In this document: positions 32,193-39,353 of the stretch, in pieces | How positions within the stretch are numbered: the first letter of the stretch is position 1 | How the letters are laid out: each line of letters begins with the position of its first letter | Position numbers and translations under genes: made by a program | Source: Chryseomicrobium sp. FSL W7-1435 | GTDB taxonomy: Bacteria; Bacillota; Bacilli; Bacillales_A; Planococcaceae | Direction: 5' to 3' | DNA: 64,000 bases | Assembly: GCF_038595005.1 (NCBI RefSeq) | Contig: NZ_CP151997.1 | Location: 1,116,001 to 1,180,000 of the forward strand | The notes under the pieces: model-generated | The model's database searches: none | Seen by the model: the letters and a program-made list of their open reading frames with translations, nothing else | What the model was told of the DNA's origin: nothing

Positions 32193-32651
32193 TTAATCGT
32201 TTAACAATTCTTTCAAGCGTAGTAAAGCTAATTTTTTGCGTTTTTTAACACCTGGAACGGAAAGTGCTAACTTTTCAGCAACTTCAGCTGCAGTATACCC
32301 ATAGTAATAACTCATCATCAGAACTTGTTGAGAGACCTCTGGTAAGGACTGAATTAATAGAACCATTTTAGGTTCTTGTTCTACTGACGGAAAGGTGGCA
32401 AAAAAGCTGTCTTCCATAGGTAGATCCTTAGAGACTTTTTTTAATTCATCAAGAACTGCTCCATACATTGTGCGGTAAGCATACCCCGCGAAAGAGCCTT
32501 TCGATTCGTCAAAGTTTTGCCAAGCTTTCCAAAGGGCGATTGAAGCAGCTTGTCTAAAAATCTCATGATCTTTGTAGATGTGCGTTTTTCGTAAAACAGA
32601 GCTAATCATTGGTTGATAGGCATCAAGTAATTGTTCAAATGAATGCATCAT
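32193..32651 (-). CDS. small sigma-70 family RNA polymerase sigma factor
   Basis: 152-aa sigma factor. Region 2 is seen in IFRQAASIALWKAWQNFDE and GSFAGYAYRTMYGAVLDEL; region 4 helix-turn-helix in GYTAAEVAEKLALSVPGVKKR. It resembles the staphylococcal SigH / Bacillus minor-sigma group rather than the primary factor. ATG 32651 is six bases after AAGGA. It is divergent from comK, 246 bp away, which suggests a link to competence as for SigH in Staphylococcus; this is inferred. No anti-sigma gene is adjacent. Confidence 0.8.
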   Translation of the reverse strand: MMHSFEQLLDAYQPMISSVLRKTHIYKDHEIFRQAASIALWKAWQNFDESKGSFAGYAYRTMYGAVLDELKKVSKDLPMEDSFFATFPSVEQEPKMVLLIQSLPEVSQQVLMMSYYYGYTAAEVAEKLALSVPGVKKRKKLALLRLKELLND

Positions 32652-32836
32652 GGTAGTCCTTAATCGGTTGCGCAAACGGTGTAATTCCTAGGTAATACTA
32701 AGATTACTGCCTACTAAAAATCAGCACCAATCAGTGATTAGAATCTTTGTCAGTAGAAACCTATACGTTTGTGTGACAAAACAGAAATCTAGTAAAATGA
32801 AACTTTCATAAAATGAGGAAAATTCAGATAAAGGTA

Positions 32837-32897: not shown

Positions 32898-33368
32898 ATG
32901 GGATTAAAGGAACAACTGAATCTTTGGCAAGTCGAAAGTAGAGCAATTTTTGCAGTAGCTGGTTGGTATATGCAACCTTTTAAGTCTGTTATCTTTACAA
33001 AAGATGGTGTGGTTTATTCGAAATTAAAGCCTGTGGAAGTAATGGAAGAACTCTGTGTTAGAAATGGAGCTTCCTATAGAGGGAGGGAGGAGGCGACACG
33101 TGTCCTAAGCAATCGACAATTCAACAAAAAAGTGCCTGTTTTAATCGCTGCACCAAATGTAGCTGCATTCCCCACATGTTCACCACAACAATTAGATTGC
33201 ATCTGGCTGTTTAACCATAGAATGTCATTCGACAAACAGTCTGAAACGATCACTCGCGTTACATTCCCTACAGAAGAAAGTATACTTGTACAAGCCTCTC
33301 TCAACAGTTTAGAGAAGCAACGTGGTCGTCTGTTTAGCGTTGTTGGCTATCACTCCTTACATAAATAA
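32898..33368 (+). CDS. comK: competence transcription factor ComK
   Basis: 156-aa DNA-binding activator of the DNA-uptake (late com) genes. It has the ComK core NGASYRGREEATRVLSN, KKVPVLIAAPN, AAFPTCSPQQLDCIWLF and a C-terminal VQASLNSLEKQRGRL, which match the conserved family pattern (SYRGR, K-P, FPT-SP, C-W). It is somewhat shorter than Bacillus ComK. GAGGAG precedes ATG 32898. Divergent from the small sigma factor gene. A second, divergent ComK-like gene lies at 51.4-52.0 kb. Confidence 0.87.
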   Translation: MGLKEQLNLWQVESRAIFAVAGWYMQPFKSVIFTKDGVVYSKLKPVEVMEELCVRNGASYRGREEATRVLSNRQFNKKVPVLIAAPNVAAFPTCSPQQLDCIWLFNHRMSFDKQSETITRVTFPTEESILVQASLNSLEKQRGRLFSVVGYHSLHK

Positions 33369-33407: not shown

Positions 33408-34730
33408 TTATTGAACGCGAGCAAATCCGAAACCTGAAGCGTAGTCATCGCCGACTGCCGCTCCACGGCCACCCAAGATATCATTTGCTTTTGCACGATT
33501 TTGAAGGTTTGTACGTAATGTAGCCGCTGTCCAAGTTGGATTTTGAGCCCAAACTTTTGCAGCTAGACCTGCTACGTGTGGTGAAGCCATTGATGTACCA
33601 CTGATTGTATTGTAGCCACCATTGTTCCAAGTTGAGTAAATTGCTGCACCTGGAGCTGAAATTTCAATGTCACCAACACCAATTACATAATCCCCATCAG
33701 TAGCCGTATAGCCACGAGAAGAGAAATCAGCAACGCGAAGTGTACCATTTTCTAAGCGGTTTTCAAGAGCTGCTACAGCAATTGCATTTCTTAGAGCCCC
33801 AGGGTAACCGATTGTACCTGCACGGAAGCCAGAGTTACCAGCTGCTGCAACGACTAGGACACCTTTGCCATAAGCATAGTCAACAGCACTTGAGATCAAG
33901 CTGTTGTTTGCTGAAGAACCTAAAGACATGTTGATAACAGTTTTTGTGCCTGTTGCAGTAGCTTGGTCAGCTGCATGACGAATGGCTGCTGCGATATCAT
34001 CTGAGTAACCAGAACCATCATCACCTAATACTTTGTAAGCCCAAAGATCAGAATCAGGTGCTACACCATAAACACCAGCTCCATCGCTACCACCATCTGC
34101 AAGGGCAGAACCTGCTACGTGTGTACCATGTCCATTAGCATCGTTACATTGACCATTTGTAAGACCAGCAGAAGTTGTGAAGTCTTTACATTGCTCAACA
34201 GTATTTACTAAGTCTAAGTGGTTCACATTTACACCAGTATCAAGGACAGCAACGTTAATGCCAGCTCCTCCAGTAGTAGTAGTTAATCCACTGTTGTTAT
34301 AGATCGCTTTAATTCCCCAAGGCACTTGTTGTGTTGGGTATTCAGCTAATGCTCCTACAGTGCCTGGCTTCTTAGCAGCGCGAAGATCGGCAGCTACTGA
34401 AACTTCATCTACTTTCGTCACTTTTAAGTTTTTATTCTTTTGAAGTGCCGTAAATTGTTTCTCTGTCATGTCGGTTGTAAAGGCGTTTCCGTTTGAAAAC
34501 TCCCAACGTTTACCGTAAGTAGCTTTTGCTGAGTTCAGCTGAGATTTTGATTGACTCATCGTTGAAACACCTGAAGGCGAAGAAGACGAAGCCTCAATTA
34601 AAACTCGAACCTTGTCACCGACATTTGCGTTCGCATTGACTTCTGCTGCTGAGACCCCAGTCACTGAACCTGCCATAGATAATGCTAATAATCCACTCAT
34701 CACGATTGCTCTTGCTTTGTTCATTTTCAT
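33408..34730 (-). CDS. secreted subtilisin-like serine protease (sphericase / S41 type)
   Basis: 440-aa preproprotease. Signal peptide to about residue 30 (GLLALSMAGSVTGVSAAE), propeptide to about 120, then an S8 domain with the triad Asp in VAVLDTGVN, His in NGHGTHVAGS and Ser in SGTSMASPHVAGL, and the oxyanion Asn in AAAGNSG. Two cysteines (EQCKDF and GQCNDAN) and the ending DDYASGFGFARVQ match sphericase and the subtilisins of psychrotolerant Planococcaceae. ATG 34730 has GGAGGAG nine bases upstream; the frame is open to 34751 but that ATG precedes the ribosome binding site. It is divergent from an RRNPP regulator, so it may be a quorum-controlled exoprotease. Confidence 0.93.
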   Translation of the reverse strand: MKMNKARAIVMSGLLALSMAGSVTGVSAAEVNANANVGDKVRVLIEASSSSPSGVSTMSQSKSQLNSAKATYGKRWEFSNGNAFTTDMTEKQFTALQKNKNLKVTKVDEVSVAADLRAAKKPGTVGALAEYPTQQVPWGIKAIYNNSGLTTTTGGAGINVAVLDTGVNVNHLDLVNTVEQCKDFTTSAGLTNGQCNDANGHGTHVAGSALADGGSDGAGVYGVAPDSDLWAYKVLGDDGSGYSDDIAAAIRHAADQATATGTKTVINMSLGSSANNSLISSAVDYAYGKGVLVVAAAGNSGFRAGTIGYPGALRNAIAVAALENRLENGTLRVADFSSRGYTATDGDYVIGVGDIEISAPGAAIYSTWNNGGYNTISGTSMASPHVAGLAAKVWAQNPTWTAATLRTNLQNRAKANDILGGRGAAVGDDYASGFGFARVQ

Positions 34731-34804
34731 AAATTTCTTCTCCTCCACCATTGTCTGATTTTGCGATTGCTATGTTTCTTAAATAAGAAGAATATGTTCA
34801 GAGG

Positions 34805-34846
34805 AACTCGTTCAGGTGTCCAACCACCTTATGTAGAGAACGAGTT
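34805..34846. promoter_or_regulatory. nested inverted repeat upstream of the protease
   Basis: AACTCGTTC (34805-34813) and GAACGAGTT (34838-34846) are exact complements; inside them AGGTG pairs with CACCT. It can form a hairpin in the 5' leader of the protease mRNA, or be an operator. The CTCGTTC core also occurs in the palindrome at 35058-35098. Within the 469-bp gap (34731-35199) this and the next two entries are the only structures I see besides the regulator promoter. Confidence 0.5.
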
Positions 34847-34955
34847 TCAAATGGAACACGATCATCTTTAAGCGAACACAACTCTCAACTGCTTGGTCTA
34901 ACTCTTATACGGTTGTGAGAAACAAAATGGATGCGCCTGCCACTCATTACTCACG

Positions 34956-34983
34956 GAAACTTTTAACATGCGGTAAAAGTTTC
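34956..34983. promoter_or_regulatory. 10-bp inverted repeat in the protease/regulator gap
   Basis: GAAACTTTTA and TAAAAGTTTC are perfect complements separated by eight bases. Either an operator or a leader hairpin; there is no T-run typical of a terminator. Confidence 0.45.
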
Positions 34984-35057
34984 AAGTCACCTTTGCAAAG
35001 ATAAATTGTTGTGGGTGTTACTAAACTGACTATACCATGGACAGAATATTTTGTTTA

Positions 35058-35098
35058 TTGGGAAAAATTAAACGAGAATACTCGTTCTCTTTTCCCAA
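35058..35098. promoter_or_regulatory. large palindrome upstream of the RRNPP regulator
   Basis: TTGGGAAAA (35058-35066) and TTTTCCCAA (35090-35098) enclose an inner pairing (ACGAGA and TCTCGT-like), giving a 41-bp dyad about 45 bp before the regulator's -35. It is well placed to control both the protease and the regulator. Confidence 0.5.
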
Positions 35099-35140
35099 CA
35101 TTTTCTACTTATTCCCTGTCTATACATTCCATTATTTGTT

Positions 35141-35169
35141 TTGTTAATTCCGAAAATTTGTTCTAAAAT
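35141..35169 (+). promoter_or_regulatory. putative promoter of the RRNPP regulator
   Basis: TTGTTA (35141-35146), 17 bp, TAAAAT (35164-35169), about 30 bp before the start codon. Confidence 0.5.
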
Positions 35170-35199
35170 GAAAGAGAGCCGAGAGGAGGTAGAGGTAAA

Positions 35200-36417
35200 A
35201 TGAAGATTGGATCCCTAATAAAATTCCATCGCACGAAGCAGGGGCTGACCCAGCAAACGCTTGCAGATGGTATTTGTTCCGTTCCTCATTTGAGTAAGAT
35301 TGAGAATAATAGCAAAGAAGCGAATGAAGAAACAATTCGCTTACTCCTAGAGCGCCTAAGCATTGACCTTCAAGATGTGGAAAAGCTGGAGGAAGAGATT
35401 AAAAATTTAATTAAACAATTTGCCGATCAGATGTATTATCTTGAAACAGATGAGGCTAATGGAATCTACAATAGACTTTTACTAAAAGAAGAATTAATTC
35501 CTTTTACCGAATATCTTTATTTATTCGAATTATATAAAACTCGTTATTTATTGCTCATTAATAATATAGAAAAAGTAGAAAAACAACTAAAGTGGTTGAA
35601 TGCCCATAAATCTAATTTTTCCCAACAAGAAGTGTATTTACATAAATACATTAGTGCATTAGTTTTAATGATAAGGGGGAATATGGAAGAGGCTGATGCT
35701 CAATTAGGACAATTAATTGAAAATAGTTTTTTAAGTTCTGAGTATATTGGTGAACTTAGCTACAACTTTTCATTGGTGAAATCATCTTTAGGAGAATATG
35801 GAGCGTCAATCTATTACGGAAAAAATGCATTGCAACAGTTTAAAGAAGATTTTAACTTTATTCGAATAGTTAATACGCAAATGTTATTAGCTGTTAACTA
35901 TTCTCGAGCAAATATGTTCAATGAAGCAGAGGAAATTTACAAGCATCTTATTCGCAACACTCGCATTTTAAAAATGGAATCATTATTACCTAGAATTTAT
36001 CACAATATGGGTGACCTCTATTACACAATGGATGAGCATGGTAAATCTTGCGGATATTTTGAGATGGCTATGGAGTATTTACCGAATAACTCGGAATTGT
36101 ATATGCTTTGTCTTTACAATAAGGCGATTTCTGAAAATCAAATGAATGAGAAAGAAAAAAGTGAAGATAGCTTTAAAGAATTAAATACCATAGCATCAAA
36201 ATCTAAGATGTTACATTATCAATTATTTTCTAAATTTTATTCCTTATATATTAACGGGAATGAAATACAAGCTATGGAGTTTCTTGAAAACAAAATCTTA
36301 CCATATACTAAGAAACATTTAGAACTAAAAGAATCTCACCATCACTTCGCCCAGCTCTTATCTGATTATTATAAGGAAAAAGGTCAATACGATAAGGCAT
36401 TAGAATTTATAAATTAA
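35200..36417 (+). CDS. RRNPP-family quorum-sensing regulator (HTH plus TPR, NprR/PlcR-like)
   Basis: 405-aa transcription regulator. Residues 1-58 are an XRE-type HTH (MKIGSLIKFHRTKQGLTQQT, VPHLSKIENN); the rest is a long array of TPR-like helical pairs (IYHNMGDLYYTMDEHGKSCGY, YYKEKGQYDKALEFIN), the peptide-binding superhelix of the Rap/NprR/PlcR group. The size (about 400 aa) fits NprR or Rgg-like members. GAGGAGGTAGAGG precedes ATG 35200. It is followed after 14 bp by a 50-codon exported peptide gene, the classic receptor/pro-peptide cassette, and is divergent from a secreted protease, as NprR is linked to NprA. I infer that the re-imported peptide switches its DNA binding. Confidence 0.88.
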   Translation: MKIGSLIKFHRTKQGLTQQTLADGICSVPHLSKIENNSKEANEETIRLLLERLSIDLQDVEKLEEEIKNLIKQFADQMYYLETDEANGIYNRLLLKEELIPFTEYLYLFELYKTRYLLLINNIEKVEKQLKWLNAHKSNFSQQEVYLHKYISALVLMIRGNMEEADAQLGQLIENSFLSSEYIGELSYNFSLVKSSLGEYGASIYYGKNALQQFKEDFNFIRIVNTQMLLAVNYSRANMFNEAEEIYKHLIRNTRILKMESLLPRIYHNMGDLYYTMDEHGKSCGYFEMAMEYLPNNSELYMLCLYNKAISENQMNEKEKSEDSFKELNTIASKSKMLHYQLFSKFYSLYINGNEIQAMEFLENKILPYTKKHLELKESHHHFAQLLSDYYKEKGQYDKALEFIN

Positions 36418-36431
36418 AGGAGAGTATACTT

Positions 36432-36584
36432 ATGAAAAAACGTGTTTTTATTGGGACATTATTTGCATTTGCATTAGTTTTTAGTCTTTCAAATGATGTA
36501 TCTGTTCTAGCGGCGCCGGAATTCTTTTCTCCATTAGGATCTTCGAAACCACCAACTATTCCAATCTTACCGCCAATCGGATGA
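36432..36584 (+). CDS. small exported pro-peptide, candidate quorum-sensing signal
   Basis: 50-aa product. A basic start (MKKR), a hydrophobic helix (VFIGTLFAFALVFSL), a signal-peptidase-like VLAA site near residue 27-28, then a short tail PEFFSPLG followed by SSKPPTIPILPPIG at the C-terminus. This is the layout of NprX and PapR pro-peptides, whose mature 5-8-residue signals come from the tail; NprX signals begin SKPD, and SKPP here is similar. AAAGGAG overlaps the regulator stop, nine bases before ATG 36432, so translation is coupled. A terminator follows at once. Too short for most gene callers. The peptide boundaries are inferred. Confidence 0.82.
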   Translation: MKKRVFIGTLFAFALVFSLSNDVSVLAAPEFFSPLGSSKPPTIPILPPIG

Positions 36585-36595
36585 TTTCTTACACT

Positions 36596-36631
36596 AAAAG
36601 CGAGGGGACTTGTTCCTCTCGCTTTTAATTT
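36596..36631 (+). terminator. terminator after the pro-peptide gene
   Basis: AAAAGCGAGGGG pairs with CCTCTCGCTTTT (one G-T pair), loop ACTTGTT-like, then TAATTT. It ends the regulator/peptide transcript before the next receptor gene. Confidence 0.82.
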
Positions 36632-36727: not shown

Positions 36728-37939
36728 ATGAATTATAAACTATATGTCCTAAATGAATTGGAACAGCAAAACTTGTACTATGATCCCTTATCTCTTCCTT
36801 ATTCTAAATTAGTCGATGAGCGTGATTTGACCGATAAGGAATTAGAAGCTGTTCTTAAACGTATTGGAGTCAGTAATTTTGTGGTAGAGCAAAAGCTTTC
36901 ACACATAAAAAACTTATTGCAATTGTTTATGAAACACCTCATCTATACTGATTACGATAAAGCTGAATTTGTTTATTCAGAGGTTGCTACATATGACAAC
37001 TTTCTTCCTTATACGGATCACAGTCGTTTAGCGTCTTTGTTAAAAATTAGATACTTTCAAGTTAAAAAGGATAAGGGGAGAATAAAGTCTTTACTGAGTC
37101 AATTAAAAAAAGAACGAAAGTACTTTACTCCATTAGAAGAATTACTTTATGAGTACTTACAAGGGCTAAACGAGTTAAACCTAGGTGATTATGAAGCAGC
37201 AAATAAGAGGCTTGATCACGTTATTAGAAACACATCTTCTTTATATGGATTTGAGGGTGAAGTTTATTATCATTTAAGCTTAATTAAAACTTATTTAGAG
37301 GAACCTAGCCGAGCCATCTATTACGGGAAAAAGGCTTTGGACTATTTAAGTCAGCAATATAATTATAGAAGAATTTTGCACGCTCAAATGTCATTAGCTA
37401 TTAATTGTGCCTATGCAAAAATTTATGAAGATGCAATCGAATACTATGAGCATTTACTGCGCAATTCTCAATTGTTGAACCAACAAGAACTTCTTCCGCA
37501 TATTTATCACAATATGGGCGATTTGTATTTCAAAATGAAAAACTTCTCATTATCAATAGCCTATTTTAATATGGCAGTTAACCACTATGAAAAAGAAGAT
37601 GTTCATTTCGCAAGCGCGCTTTTAAATTTAGGTTTAACGGAAATGGAGATGGATAAAAAAGAGGATGCTTCTCGAACTTTTAATCGTCTGTATGATGTTT
37701 CTGAGCGTCTATCATTTAAAAATTATAGCTTATATGCTGAGTACTATTTGAAACTTCTTCTGGATGAGTATGATGGGGCCTACGAATATTTAGAACAAGT
37801 TGTTATTCCCTACACTAAGTCTCAGCCGAGTGAAAGAAACTTTGAAATCATTTTCTCCGACATGCTAGTCAACTACTATAAAGACAAAGGGCAGTTTGAA
37901 AAAGCCTTTTCCTATATCACGGATGACAAATACAACTAA
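36728..37939 (+). CDS. HTH-less TPR paralogue of the RRNPP regulator
   Basis: 403-aa cytoplasmic TPR protein. From about residue 65 on it aligns by eye with the regulator at 35200: IYHNMGDLYFKMKNFSLSIAYF versus IYHNMGDLYYTMDEHGKSCGYF, RAIYYGKKALDYL versus ASIYYGKNALQQF, and VIPYTK ... YYKDKGQFEKAF versus ILPYTK ... YYKEKGQYDKAL. The first about 60 residues no longer look like an HTH; only the last helix and the IKNLLQLF stretch resemble the regulator. So it keeps the likely peptide-binding superhelix without DNA binding, as in Rap proteins. GAAGG precedes ATG 36728. It has its own promoter region after the upstream terminator. Role inferred: signal decoy or protein-level effector. Confidence 0.8.
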   Translation: MNYKLYVLNELEQQNLYYDPLSLPYSKLVDERDLTDKELEAVLKRIGVSNFVVEQKLSHIKNLLQLFMKHLIYTDYDKAEFVYSEVATYDNFLPYTDHSRLASLLKIRYFQVKKDKGRIKSLLSQLKKERKYFTPLEELLYEYLQGLNELNLGDYEAANKRLDHVIRNTSSLYGFEGEVYYHLSLIKTYLEEPSRAIYYGKKALDYLSQQYNYRRILHAQMSLAINCAYAKIYEDAIEYYEHLLRNSQLLNQQELLPHIYHNMGDLYFKMKNFSLSIAYFNMAVNHYEKEDVHFASALLNLGLTEMEMDKKEDASRTFNRLYDVSERLSFKNYSLYAEYYLKLLLDEYDGAYEYLEQVVIPYTKSQPSERNFEIIFSDMLVNYYKDKGQFEKAFSYITDDKYN

Positions 37940-37981
37940 AAAAAGAGGCCTTGTCTAAGTAGATTAGATAAGGTCTCTTTA
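37937..37981. terminator. bidirectional terminator after the TPR paralogue
   Basis: AAAGAGGCCTTGTCTAA pairs with TTAGATAAGGTCTCTTT around five bases. It ends the TPR gene and, on the minus strand, the PAS-STAS operon. Confidence 0.85.
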
Positions 37982-38728
37982 GATGGATTGTAGAGCTGCC
38001 GCAAGTTTCGCATAGTAGTGCGTGGAACCAATTTGAATTTCAAGTTCGTTTAGAGCTTTTACTTGTTTGGGATGAAGACCAGAGACGATGACCCTGACGC
38101 CCATGATAGAAGCAGATTTAACAAATTGATCAACACCTTGCCAGTTTTCTAAACCAAAATCACCTGATGCGGTGAAATCTAAAATGGCTATTTGGGTTTG
38201 TTCTTCGACGAAATGCGTTAGTAATCGGTTGAAAATCAGAGTCATTTGGTTGAGTTCCAATGCCCCAAAGAGAGGAATCAACGTAACTCCTTCTTTTACA
38301 ACGATTGCAGGCGCTGACAGTTCTTGCATCCCTACTAACAAACTTTGCACTCTGTCTTTTTCTTCAACTAACTCAGAATTTCGAATGGATAGCTCTGTTT
38401 GTAATAAGCCAAGCTTAGAACTTACTAACGAATATTGGGAAGATTTTTGCACAACAAGGACGACACCTTCACCGCGACTCCAAGTGACAAACAAATCGAC
38501 AAACTCTAAGTTTCCAGACTTTCCTACAAGGCTCACTTCTAATGGCTCGCCAACTTTTAATTTACCAATAAACTTAGCTACTTTAGATTGACTTCCTGAA
38601 TCTACATTTGATAGGAAAGTGCGTTTCCAACCATACTTTTCAATGTATTCTTCAGAGGCATCTATCATCTCAAGTTGTTCATTAATTACAACAGCCGGTA
38701 AGGCGAACTCACGAAATCTTTTTCCCAT
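37979..38728 (-). CDS. PAS-STAS protein (RsbR-like stressosome-type)
   Basis: 249-aa cytoplasmic protein. The N-terminus (FREFALPAVVINEQLEMIDASEEYIEKYG) is a PAS-like fold; a helical linker (about 110-135) leads to a STAS domain from about residue 140 (APAIVVKEGVTLIPLFGALE, then IAILDFTASGDFG and GVRVIVSGLHPKQVKAL). STAS partners of RsbR/RsbS type carry phosphorylated Ser/Thr at loops like DFTASG. ATG 38728 follows GAAGGTGG and overlaps the B12 gene by 20 bp; the longer frame to 38815 lies inside that gene. Last gene of a four-gene operon with a cobalamin photosensor, so it may pass a light signal to a partner-switching pathway. Confidence 0.8.
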   Translation of the reverse strand: MGKRFREFALPAVVINEQLEMIDASEEYIEKYGWKRTFLSNVDSGSQSKVAKFIGKLKVGEPLEVSLVGKSGNLEFVDLFVTWSRGEGVVLVVQKSSQYSLVSSKLGLLQTELSIRNSELVEEKDRVQSLLVGMQELSAPAIVVKEGVTLIPLFGALELNQMTLIFNRLLTHFVEEQTQIAILDFTASGDFGLENWQGVDQFVKSASIMGVRVIVSGLHPKQVKALNELEIQIGSTHYYAKLAAALQSI

Positions 38729-39353
38729 TTGGTCCACCTTCTTTAATCCATTGTTCAAGTGCTGGAAGTGACTCCATGATATGCACGGAAGATGGAAGGA
38801 GAGTATGTAAATCAATTAATTCAGTAATTCGACCGCCAATAACGACTGCTAAAGAAGGGTGTTCTTCTTTCAGTTTTAATACCAGACTTTGAATGGCCAT
38901 GATGCGGTGGACAAGTGCTGCAGAGATCGCAATGACATCTGGATTCCAACGTTCAATGGCTTTTAAAGCATGTGTCTCTGGCATATTAGGCCCTAAATAG
39001 CGTACGCGCCAACCATTTTGTTTAAAAATACTGCTGACCATTTTTAAGCCAATGTAATGTTCTTCATCTTGTACACCCATCAGTAAAACGGTTTTTTCAG
39101 TGCGAAGCTGAGGTTGTAGCTGAATATCTAATCGAGATAAGATAAAGTCACAAATAGCGGTAGCTAGATGTTCGTCTGCCACAGTGATCTGATTGTTTTC
39201 CCACAATTGCCCGATGTGTTGCATAGCGGGGGTCAATAAATCATTCATCATTTGTTGTCTTGATGTCCGCTCTATCTCTTGTTCAATCAGCTGTAAAGCT
39301 AGTTCTTCCTCACCTTCTAGTAAAAGGGAGGCAAGCTGATAGATTTTATTCAA
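38709..39353 (-). CDS. cobalamin-binding protein of CarH photosensor type, without DNA-binding domain
   Basis: 214-aa cytoplasmic protein. Residues about 1-80 form the helical B12-cap domain with IGQLWENNQITVADEHLATAI; this is an exact Wx9EH motif (W51, E61, H62), which in CarH/LitR photoreceptors lies over the adenosyl group of AdoCbl. Residues about 86-200 are the Rossmann B12-binding domain with ExHxxG (E97, H99, G102), the likely lower ligand, then YLGPNMP and VVIGG. Glu in place of the Asp of methyltransferase-type DxHxxG sites is also seen in CarH-type domains. There is no MerR-like HTH, so any output goes through partners. It overlaps the PAS-STAS gene by 20 bp and follows a 118-aa helical protein gene by 5 bp. 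Confidence 0.85.
   Translation of the reverse strand: MNKIYQLASLLLEGEEELALQLIEQEIERTSRQQMMNDLLTPAMQHIGQLWENNQITVADEHLATAICDFILSRLDIQLQPQLRTEKTVLLMGVQDEEHYIGLKMVSSIFKQNGWRVRYLGPNMPETHALKAIERWNPDVIAISAALVHRIMAIQSLVLKLKEEHPSLAVVIGGRITELIDLHTLLPSSVHIMESLPALEQWIKEGGPNGKKIS

Follow-up and report, generated by a model that had tools for sequence, protein, structure and literature searches.

A candidate NprR-like quorum-sensing cassette with a PI-x-PP-type signal beside a secreted protease gene in Chryseomicrobium and its relatives

Chryseomicrobium sp. FSL W7-1435 has a complete genome of 2.71 Mb; of the named species, Chryseomicrobium excrementi, C. aureum and Tetzosporium hominis stand closest to it. 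The window analysed here is a stretch of 64,000 nucleotides of that genome (NZ_CP151997.1, positions 1,116,001 to 1,180,000), and coordinates are given as positions within it. At 35200–36417 (+ strand) lies the gene R1, which codes for a peptide receptor/regulator of 405 amino acids (aa) with an XRE-type helix-turn-helix (HTH) domain and nine tetratricopeptide repeats (TPRs), recognised by HTH_3 (2.8e-8) and TPR_12 matches, by matches to NprR and by Foldseek. After a gap of 14 bp it is followed by the gene of an exported 50-aa pro-peptide, MKKRVFIGTLFAFALVFSLSNDVSVLAAPEFFSPLGSSKPPTIPILPPIG (36432–36584, +), which was delimited by its open reading frame (ORF) and by comparison across loci and whose ribosome-binding site AAAGGAGAG overlaps the R1 stop codon; a terminator-like hairpin comes next (36602–36618, +). 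Upstream of and divergent from R1 is the gene of a secreted subtilisin-type (S8) protease (33408–34751, −; Peptidase_S8, E=1.9e-51). An initial annotation, drawn by a model from the sequence alone, had proposed a regulator of about 400 aa, a 50-codon exported peptide, a terminator and a divergent subtilisin, and all four were found as described. Its cassette of R1, peptide and protease overlooked, however, a second receptor-like gene, R2 (36728–37939, +), which encodes a 403-aa TPR paralogue of R1 with a decayed HTH, so that the gene order is R1–peptide–R2.

Among proteins of solved structure R1 is closest to NprR (phmmer 7e-15; family profile 1.9e-50) and then to Rap, and its AlphaFold2 model (predicted local distance difference test score, pLDDT, 93) finds its best Foldseek matches in apo-NprR and NprR–NprX, followed again by Rap. 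The N-terminal HTH and C-terminal TPR superhelix of R1 are those of an RRNPP(A) receptor, and the adjacent gene, judged by sequence, has the basic start, hydrophobic helix and C-terminal signal of an RRNPP(A) pro-peptide. Identity to NprR is at most 27% (TPR chain of 4gpk), below the cut-off of at least 30% to reference NprR that was applied in PMC10075063. The Spo0F-binding residues of NprR (D107, Y118, E188 and Y223) are absent from R1, which has F102, K113, I183 and F218 at these positions, and a groove-type asparagine is kept (R1 N269, NprR N275). By the sequence tests applied, R1 is NprR-like but not an NprR ortholog. Among the four members of the genus the HTH of R1 (60 aa) is 100% identical and the TPR blocks are 57–84% identical, a pattern that reads as a fixed DNA target and a drifting sensor.

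The signal was defined by comparison across genomes. A single scan across about 85,000 species genomes yielded 56 loci with related receptors; the PIxPP clade is represented by a set of 43 loci, that of the window included, and a survey of the family covered 261 genomes, in which 26 R1-type loci were read (about eight overlap the 56-locus set). At 41 of the 56 loci a small ORF directly 3′ of the receptor ends in a tail of the form [PA][ITVP]xPP[ILVMG], versus 2 of 4488 other small ORFs at these loci, an association far beyond chance; the tail is also present at 25 of the 26 loci of the partly overlapping family survey. The peptide accompanies the regulator in all close and in most distant relatives, which was the test that the initial annotation had set for itself. 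The conserved portion comprises the last 7–9 residues, PI-x-PP-[IV]-(G), behind a variable spacer, and reads IPILPPIG in the window, IPIHPPIG in Psychrobacillus, HPIQPPIG or HPILPPV in Neobacillus and IPIRPPVG in Paenisporosarcina. As this is the only portion kept across genera, the mature pheromone is predicted to be IPILPPIG (36558–36581, +) or a slightly longer C-terminal piece. The shortest precursors have 29–31 aa, with the tail straight after the hydrophobic segment. Psychrobacillus pro-peptides contain the signal unit as a threefold repeat, and in another genus (locus L165) the pro-peptide carries four copies of FPIHPPIL with near-identical spacers, as a multi-copy pheromone precursor would; tandem signal repeats are known in other RRNPP pheromones (PMC9765709, PMC11343458). 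The motif SSKPP, which had been read as the hallmark of the signal, was ruled out as its core, since it varies within the genus (GSKPPT, AGRAPT and AGPAPT in the three closest genomes) while IPILPP[IV][GD] is kept. What is conserved is the Pro/Ile tail, which makes the NprX-like ‘SKP’ incidental; the proposal of a signal class other than that of NprX holds, the conserved tail being PI-x-PP-[IV] and having no SKPD. Receptors about 27–30% identical to R1 at L009 and L010, with a co-oriented S8 protease upstream, go with peptides that end in HVLPPF and TILPPL. Gottfriedia-type relatives of R1 (L099–L103, L105, L107) have a different 50-aa pro-peptide, which ends in EDDPKPPGS and is a separate signal class; its gene overlaps the end of the R1 gene, and the neighbours are sugar-deacetylase and phosphotransferase system-like genes. 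At the receptor loci L104, L106 and L109–L112 no recognisable peptide was found.

An S8 gene recurs beside the receptor in different arrangements. It is divergent in the Planococcaceae-like set, co-oriented and upstream at nine loci (eight Neobacillus-type and L095), and co-oriented and downstream (about 1000 aa, of the PA-domain type in L111) in a clade with receptors 28–32% identical. In the family survey a divergent S8 gene, 51–70% identical to that of the window, is present at 25 of the 26 R1-type loci. Only six S8 matches exist in the whole host genome, and the repeated adjacency of receptor and S8 gene is therefore not due to chance.

Comparison of upstream regions also uncovered a shared DNA box, TTTTCCCAA, which was first revealed as TTGGGAAA by an 8-mer count; exact 6-bp palindromes were sought 5′ of R1 and none was common to most loci. 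The box lies at most 200 bp upstream of the transcription unit at 41 of the 43 PIxPP-clade loci (mean 1.3 and maximum 7 in Markov simulations), and it relocates with the protease. With a co-oriented protease gene 5′ of R1, the box stands ahead of the protease gene and the protease–R1 gap has none; with a large S8 gene 3′ of the receptor, two boxes stand directly before that gene; and distant receptors with S8 neighbours (L009, L010, L011, L016) have the box before the protease too. At loci without a protease it is found mostly 86–180 bp before R1. In the window one copy, TTTTCCCAATA (35056–35066, −), faces the protease and abuts a weak −35, and the extended −10 (TATAGT; 35029–35034, −) of the predicted protease promoter lies at exactly +31 from the start of TTTCCCAA; another copy, TTTTCCCAACA (35090–35100, +), faces R1. 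This spacing is fixed: 14 protease promoters, belonging to two clades far apart, all have the −10 hexamer beginning exactly 31 nt past the TTTCCCAA start, which places the box against a weak −35, the usual position of a class II activator. The association of box and receptor suggests that R1 binds TTTTCCCAA. The same position is reported for NprR–NprX, said to bind around the −35 of nprA, although the exact sequence recognised was still to be determined in a 2014 review (PMC4147580); among 399 surveyed genomes of the class no close NprR was found, when one was sought for the B. cereus nprA promoter box.

It is highly probable that the locus is an NprR-like quorum-sensing cassette of the RRNPP family that has a pheromone class of its own and in which peptide-bound R1 activates the protease. 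The 50-aa pro-peptide would be exported by Sec and cut extracellularly, and its C-terminal 7–9 residues (here IPILPPIG) would re-enter via an oligopeptide permease; SBP_bac_5 peptide-binding proteins are encoded at four chromosomal places in the host genome. The imported peptide would bind the TPR groove of R1, and peptide-bound R1 would bind the box upstream of the weak −35 and activate from a class-II-like position. Its targets would be the divergent secreted S8 protease and R1 itself; a promoter within R1 that feeds the pheromone gene is a probable further target, which would create positive feedback, and R2 would probably be a Rap-like partner or sink that senses R1's peptide. Several observations weigh against this reading. 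The residues that hold NprX in its receptor (R126, W167, H201, N306, D309 and the Y165–R343 pair; PMC4970707) are not conserved in R1, so that the binding mode of the peptide in R1 is extrapolated. In Neobacillus the apparent start sites are at a greater distance from the box than they are in the class-II-like set; the clade of L104, L106 and L109–L111 has protease and boxes yet no recognisable peptide; and an adjacent protease is present at only 18 of the 43 named clade loci. The peptide-quorum circuit first proposed stands as an RRNPP-type pair with a recurrent protease link and a shared promoter box, and its control of the exoprotease is to be read as a prediction from these associations.

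The adjacent protease might instead serve mainly to mature the pro-peptide, in which case the circuit would control its own processing and not a social output. In B. subtilis, Phr pheromones are matured by secreted proteases, among them subtilisin, Epr, Vpr, Bpr, NprE and WprA (PMC11343458), the threefold and fourfold tandem pro-peptides require internal cuts, and the protease relocates along with the receptor. Many Neobacillus cassettes, however, consist of receptor, peptide and box with no adjacent protease. Moreover, in several species the tail of the 29–31-aa pro-peptides directly follows the hydrophobic segment, so that signal peptidase may suffice, and in Bacillus infantis (L083) the protease beside the receptor is from a different family, an M4 neutral protease in place of S8. 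Maturation as the main role is judged unlikely, and activation of an exoprotease by peptide-bound R1 is preferred. The L083 locus has two boxes, 3.3–3.5 kb after the R1 start, before the gene of a secreted 219-aa protein.

A further copy of the box, TTTTCCCAACA (35617–35627, +), lies inside R1, where it spans codons F140-S141-Q142 and 2 nt more. Its 9-mer, TTT TCC CAA (35617–35625), is frozen at the codon level: TTT, TCC and CAA are each found in 43 of 43 receptors, and TCC stands at Ser141 in 25 of 25 in the family survey. Conservation of Phe-Ser-Gln combined with codon bias might produce such a match to TTTTCCCAA with no operator being involved, given that the family keeps F140 and S141 outside the box-bearing clade too and that TTT and CAA are common codons. 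TCC, however, makes up 18% of Ser codons, other invariant Ser columns vary in codon, column 141 has the lowest relative synonymous entropy of 75 conserved columns, and out-group receptors that keep Ser141 mostly have TCT. At L009 and L010, in addition, the intragenic box occurs at a different site, +1051 rather than +418. L160, the sole R1 ortholog without peptide, protease and promoter box, has lost the intragenic box too (Q142K). An explanation by protein conservation and codon usage alone appears improbable, and DNA-level selection on the intragenic box is well supported by these codon patterns. The box may drive an internal promoter for the pheromone gene, for which the separate SigH/SigE promoter of nprX (PMC4147580) would be a precedent. 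Many Neobacillus receptors have a TATAAT-like hexamer at +32 from the intragenic box; in the window and its closest relatives no TATAAT-like match is found at that offset. Codon 156 of R1 (35665–35667), about 48 nt after the intragenic box, is a second frozen column (Leu TTA, 41 of 41) and may belong to the predicted internal promoter or transcript start.

Throughout the host genome TTTTCCCAAYA occurs at five sites, three of which belong to this locus. The box followed by 23 bp and TANNNT occurs at two, one at this locus and one inside a SleB-like coding sequence, and the circuit therefore looks local. No genome-wide regulon was found in the host, the outside sites being in or near ribosomal-protein and ndk-like genes (the two remaining TTTTCCCAAYA sites) and the SleB-like gene. 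The box could also be bound by another regulator such as CodY, with R1 acting elsewhere. Its left part, AATTTTC, resembles a CodY half-site, and the CodY motif, AATTTTCWGAAAATT, shares its left half with the box. CodY is also a repressor of nprR in B. thuringiensis (PMC4147580). The invariant core CCCAA, however, does not match CodY, the concentration of three of five sites at one locus is unlike a global regulator, the box goes with the receptor family in every arrangement, and the L160 ortholog without peptide and protease is also without promoter and intragenic boxes. Recognition by such a regulator is considered very unlikely, and R1 is retained as the predicted ligand of the box.

The covariation of tail and TPR domain that had been suggested as a check produced a lead only. 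Receptors that go with a His or Tyr before PI in the peptide all have Asp at R1 position 379, those that go with Arg have Glu, and Asp is never found together with Ile or Val; the position ranks first of 661 column tests, with about five independent changes and a sign test of p=0.125. Pro-rich short peptides can act on proteases, and the 50-aa ORF might accordingly encode a secreted inhibitor of proteases or an antimicrobial peptide, regulated together with the protease, but this is most improbable, as only the last 7–9 residues are conserved, tandem units occur in two lineages, the gene sits after an NprR-like receptor and residue 379 varies with the peptide residue ahead of PI. A conserved end behind a variable spacer, together with tandem repeats, is a signature of RRNPP pheromone precursors (PMC9765709).

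R2 is 31% identical to R1 over 390 residues and has TPRs, with no HTH match in Pfam. In its model (pLDDT 92) HTH helix 2 is missing and the recognition helix is reduced from nine to four residues; on this model the HTH is decayed and DNA binding is lost, and the absence of a DNA-binding HTH is a defining feature of Rap proteins. Its best structural matches are NprR and Rap, with RapI and Rap3T close. It still carries the invariant receptor residues N219, R222 and N269, as N212, R215 and N262, and two of the four Spo0F-contact positions match (E176, Y211). The Spo0A gene is present in the host genome. Since R2 keeps the TPR fold and groove-type residues and has lost DNA binding, it probably senses R1's peptide, as a non-DNA-binding reader or sink and Rap-like partner. 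Among the 261 genomes of the family it is restricted to four Chryseomicrobium/Tetzosporium genomes, and it branches inside the PIxPP clade near the Planococcaceae part (Shimodaira–Hasegawa-like approximate likelihood ratio test 97 for a 15-row group). It is tentatively proposed, at slightly less than even chances, that a receptor-internal operator, codon-frozen across the clade, lets the signal-bound receptor fire an internal promoter and so raise pheromone without more full-length receptor, and that a Chryseomicrobium/Tetzosporium duplicate lost its HTH and became a second reader of this signal, one that does not bind DNA, a separate origin of a Rap-like protein.

Among known systems NprR/NprX of the B. 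cereus group shares the layout, with an HTH and nine TPRs, a pro-peptide gene just 3′ and an exoprotease link. The R1 cassette differs from it in its signal, PIxPP[IV](G) and not SKPD-type (SKP being variable even within the genus), in its partner protease, S8 and not M4 except in B. infantis, and in a receptor of at most 27% identity that keeps neither the NprX contacts nor the Spo0F-binding residues. As a receptor-like TPR protein that lacks an HTH and is encoded next to a pro-peptide gene, R2 resembles Rap/Phr systems; unlike Rap, it arose separately within the PIxPP clade, has a degenerate HTH remnant and matches two of four Spo0F contacts. PlcR, paired with PapR, is likewise a peptide-activated HTH–TPR regulator of secreted enzymes, the role predicted for R1, but it has five TPRs and the palindromic box TATGNANNNNANCATA (PMC4147580), whereas the R1 cassette has nine TPRs and the box TTTTCCCAA. 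Candidate subfamilies from RRNPP_detector and NprR profile hits in 21 genera have been published (PMC10075063, PMC9765709), and R1-type receptors may already be in these lists, unnamed or lumped with NprR. In the main texts of these two papers no mention was found of Psychrobacillus, Planococcaceae, Neobacillus or subtilisin, not every name having been sought in both. To judge from the genomes compared, the wiring recurs in dozens of relatives and is a conserved, undescribed signalling dialect, for which PI-x-PP-[IV] provides a defined pheromone code; this widespread clade was seen in Chryseomicrobium, Tetzosporium, Psychrobacillus, Paenisporosarcina, Neobacillus, Mesobacillus and Bacillus relatives. 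The predicted box is a concrete candidate operator for NprR-like regulators, next to the −35 as for NprR–NprX. A proline-rich signal may resist the peptidases that its own circuit switches on, and R2, as a recent HTH loss, allows the step from an NprR-like to a Rap-like protein to be studied.

Other genes adjoin the cassette. A ComK-family gene (32898–33368, +; Pfam ComK, 8e-20) is convergent with the protease gene and keeps this position in C. excrementi, C. aureum and T. hominis; it adjoins a sigma-70-like gene (32193–32675, −), and the circuit may have some connection with competence. On the other side, a gene for a YtvA/RsbR-like STAS protein (37979–39353, −; YtvA_fam, 5e-14) overlaps a B12-binding-domain gene and is kept 3′ of R2 in C. 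excrementi and T. hominis.

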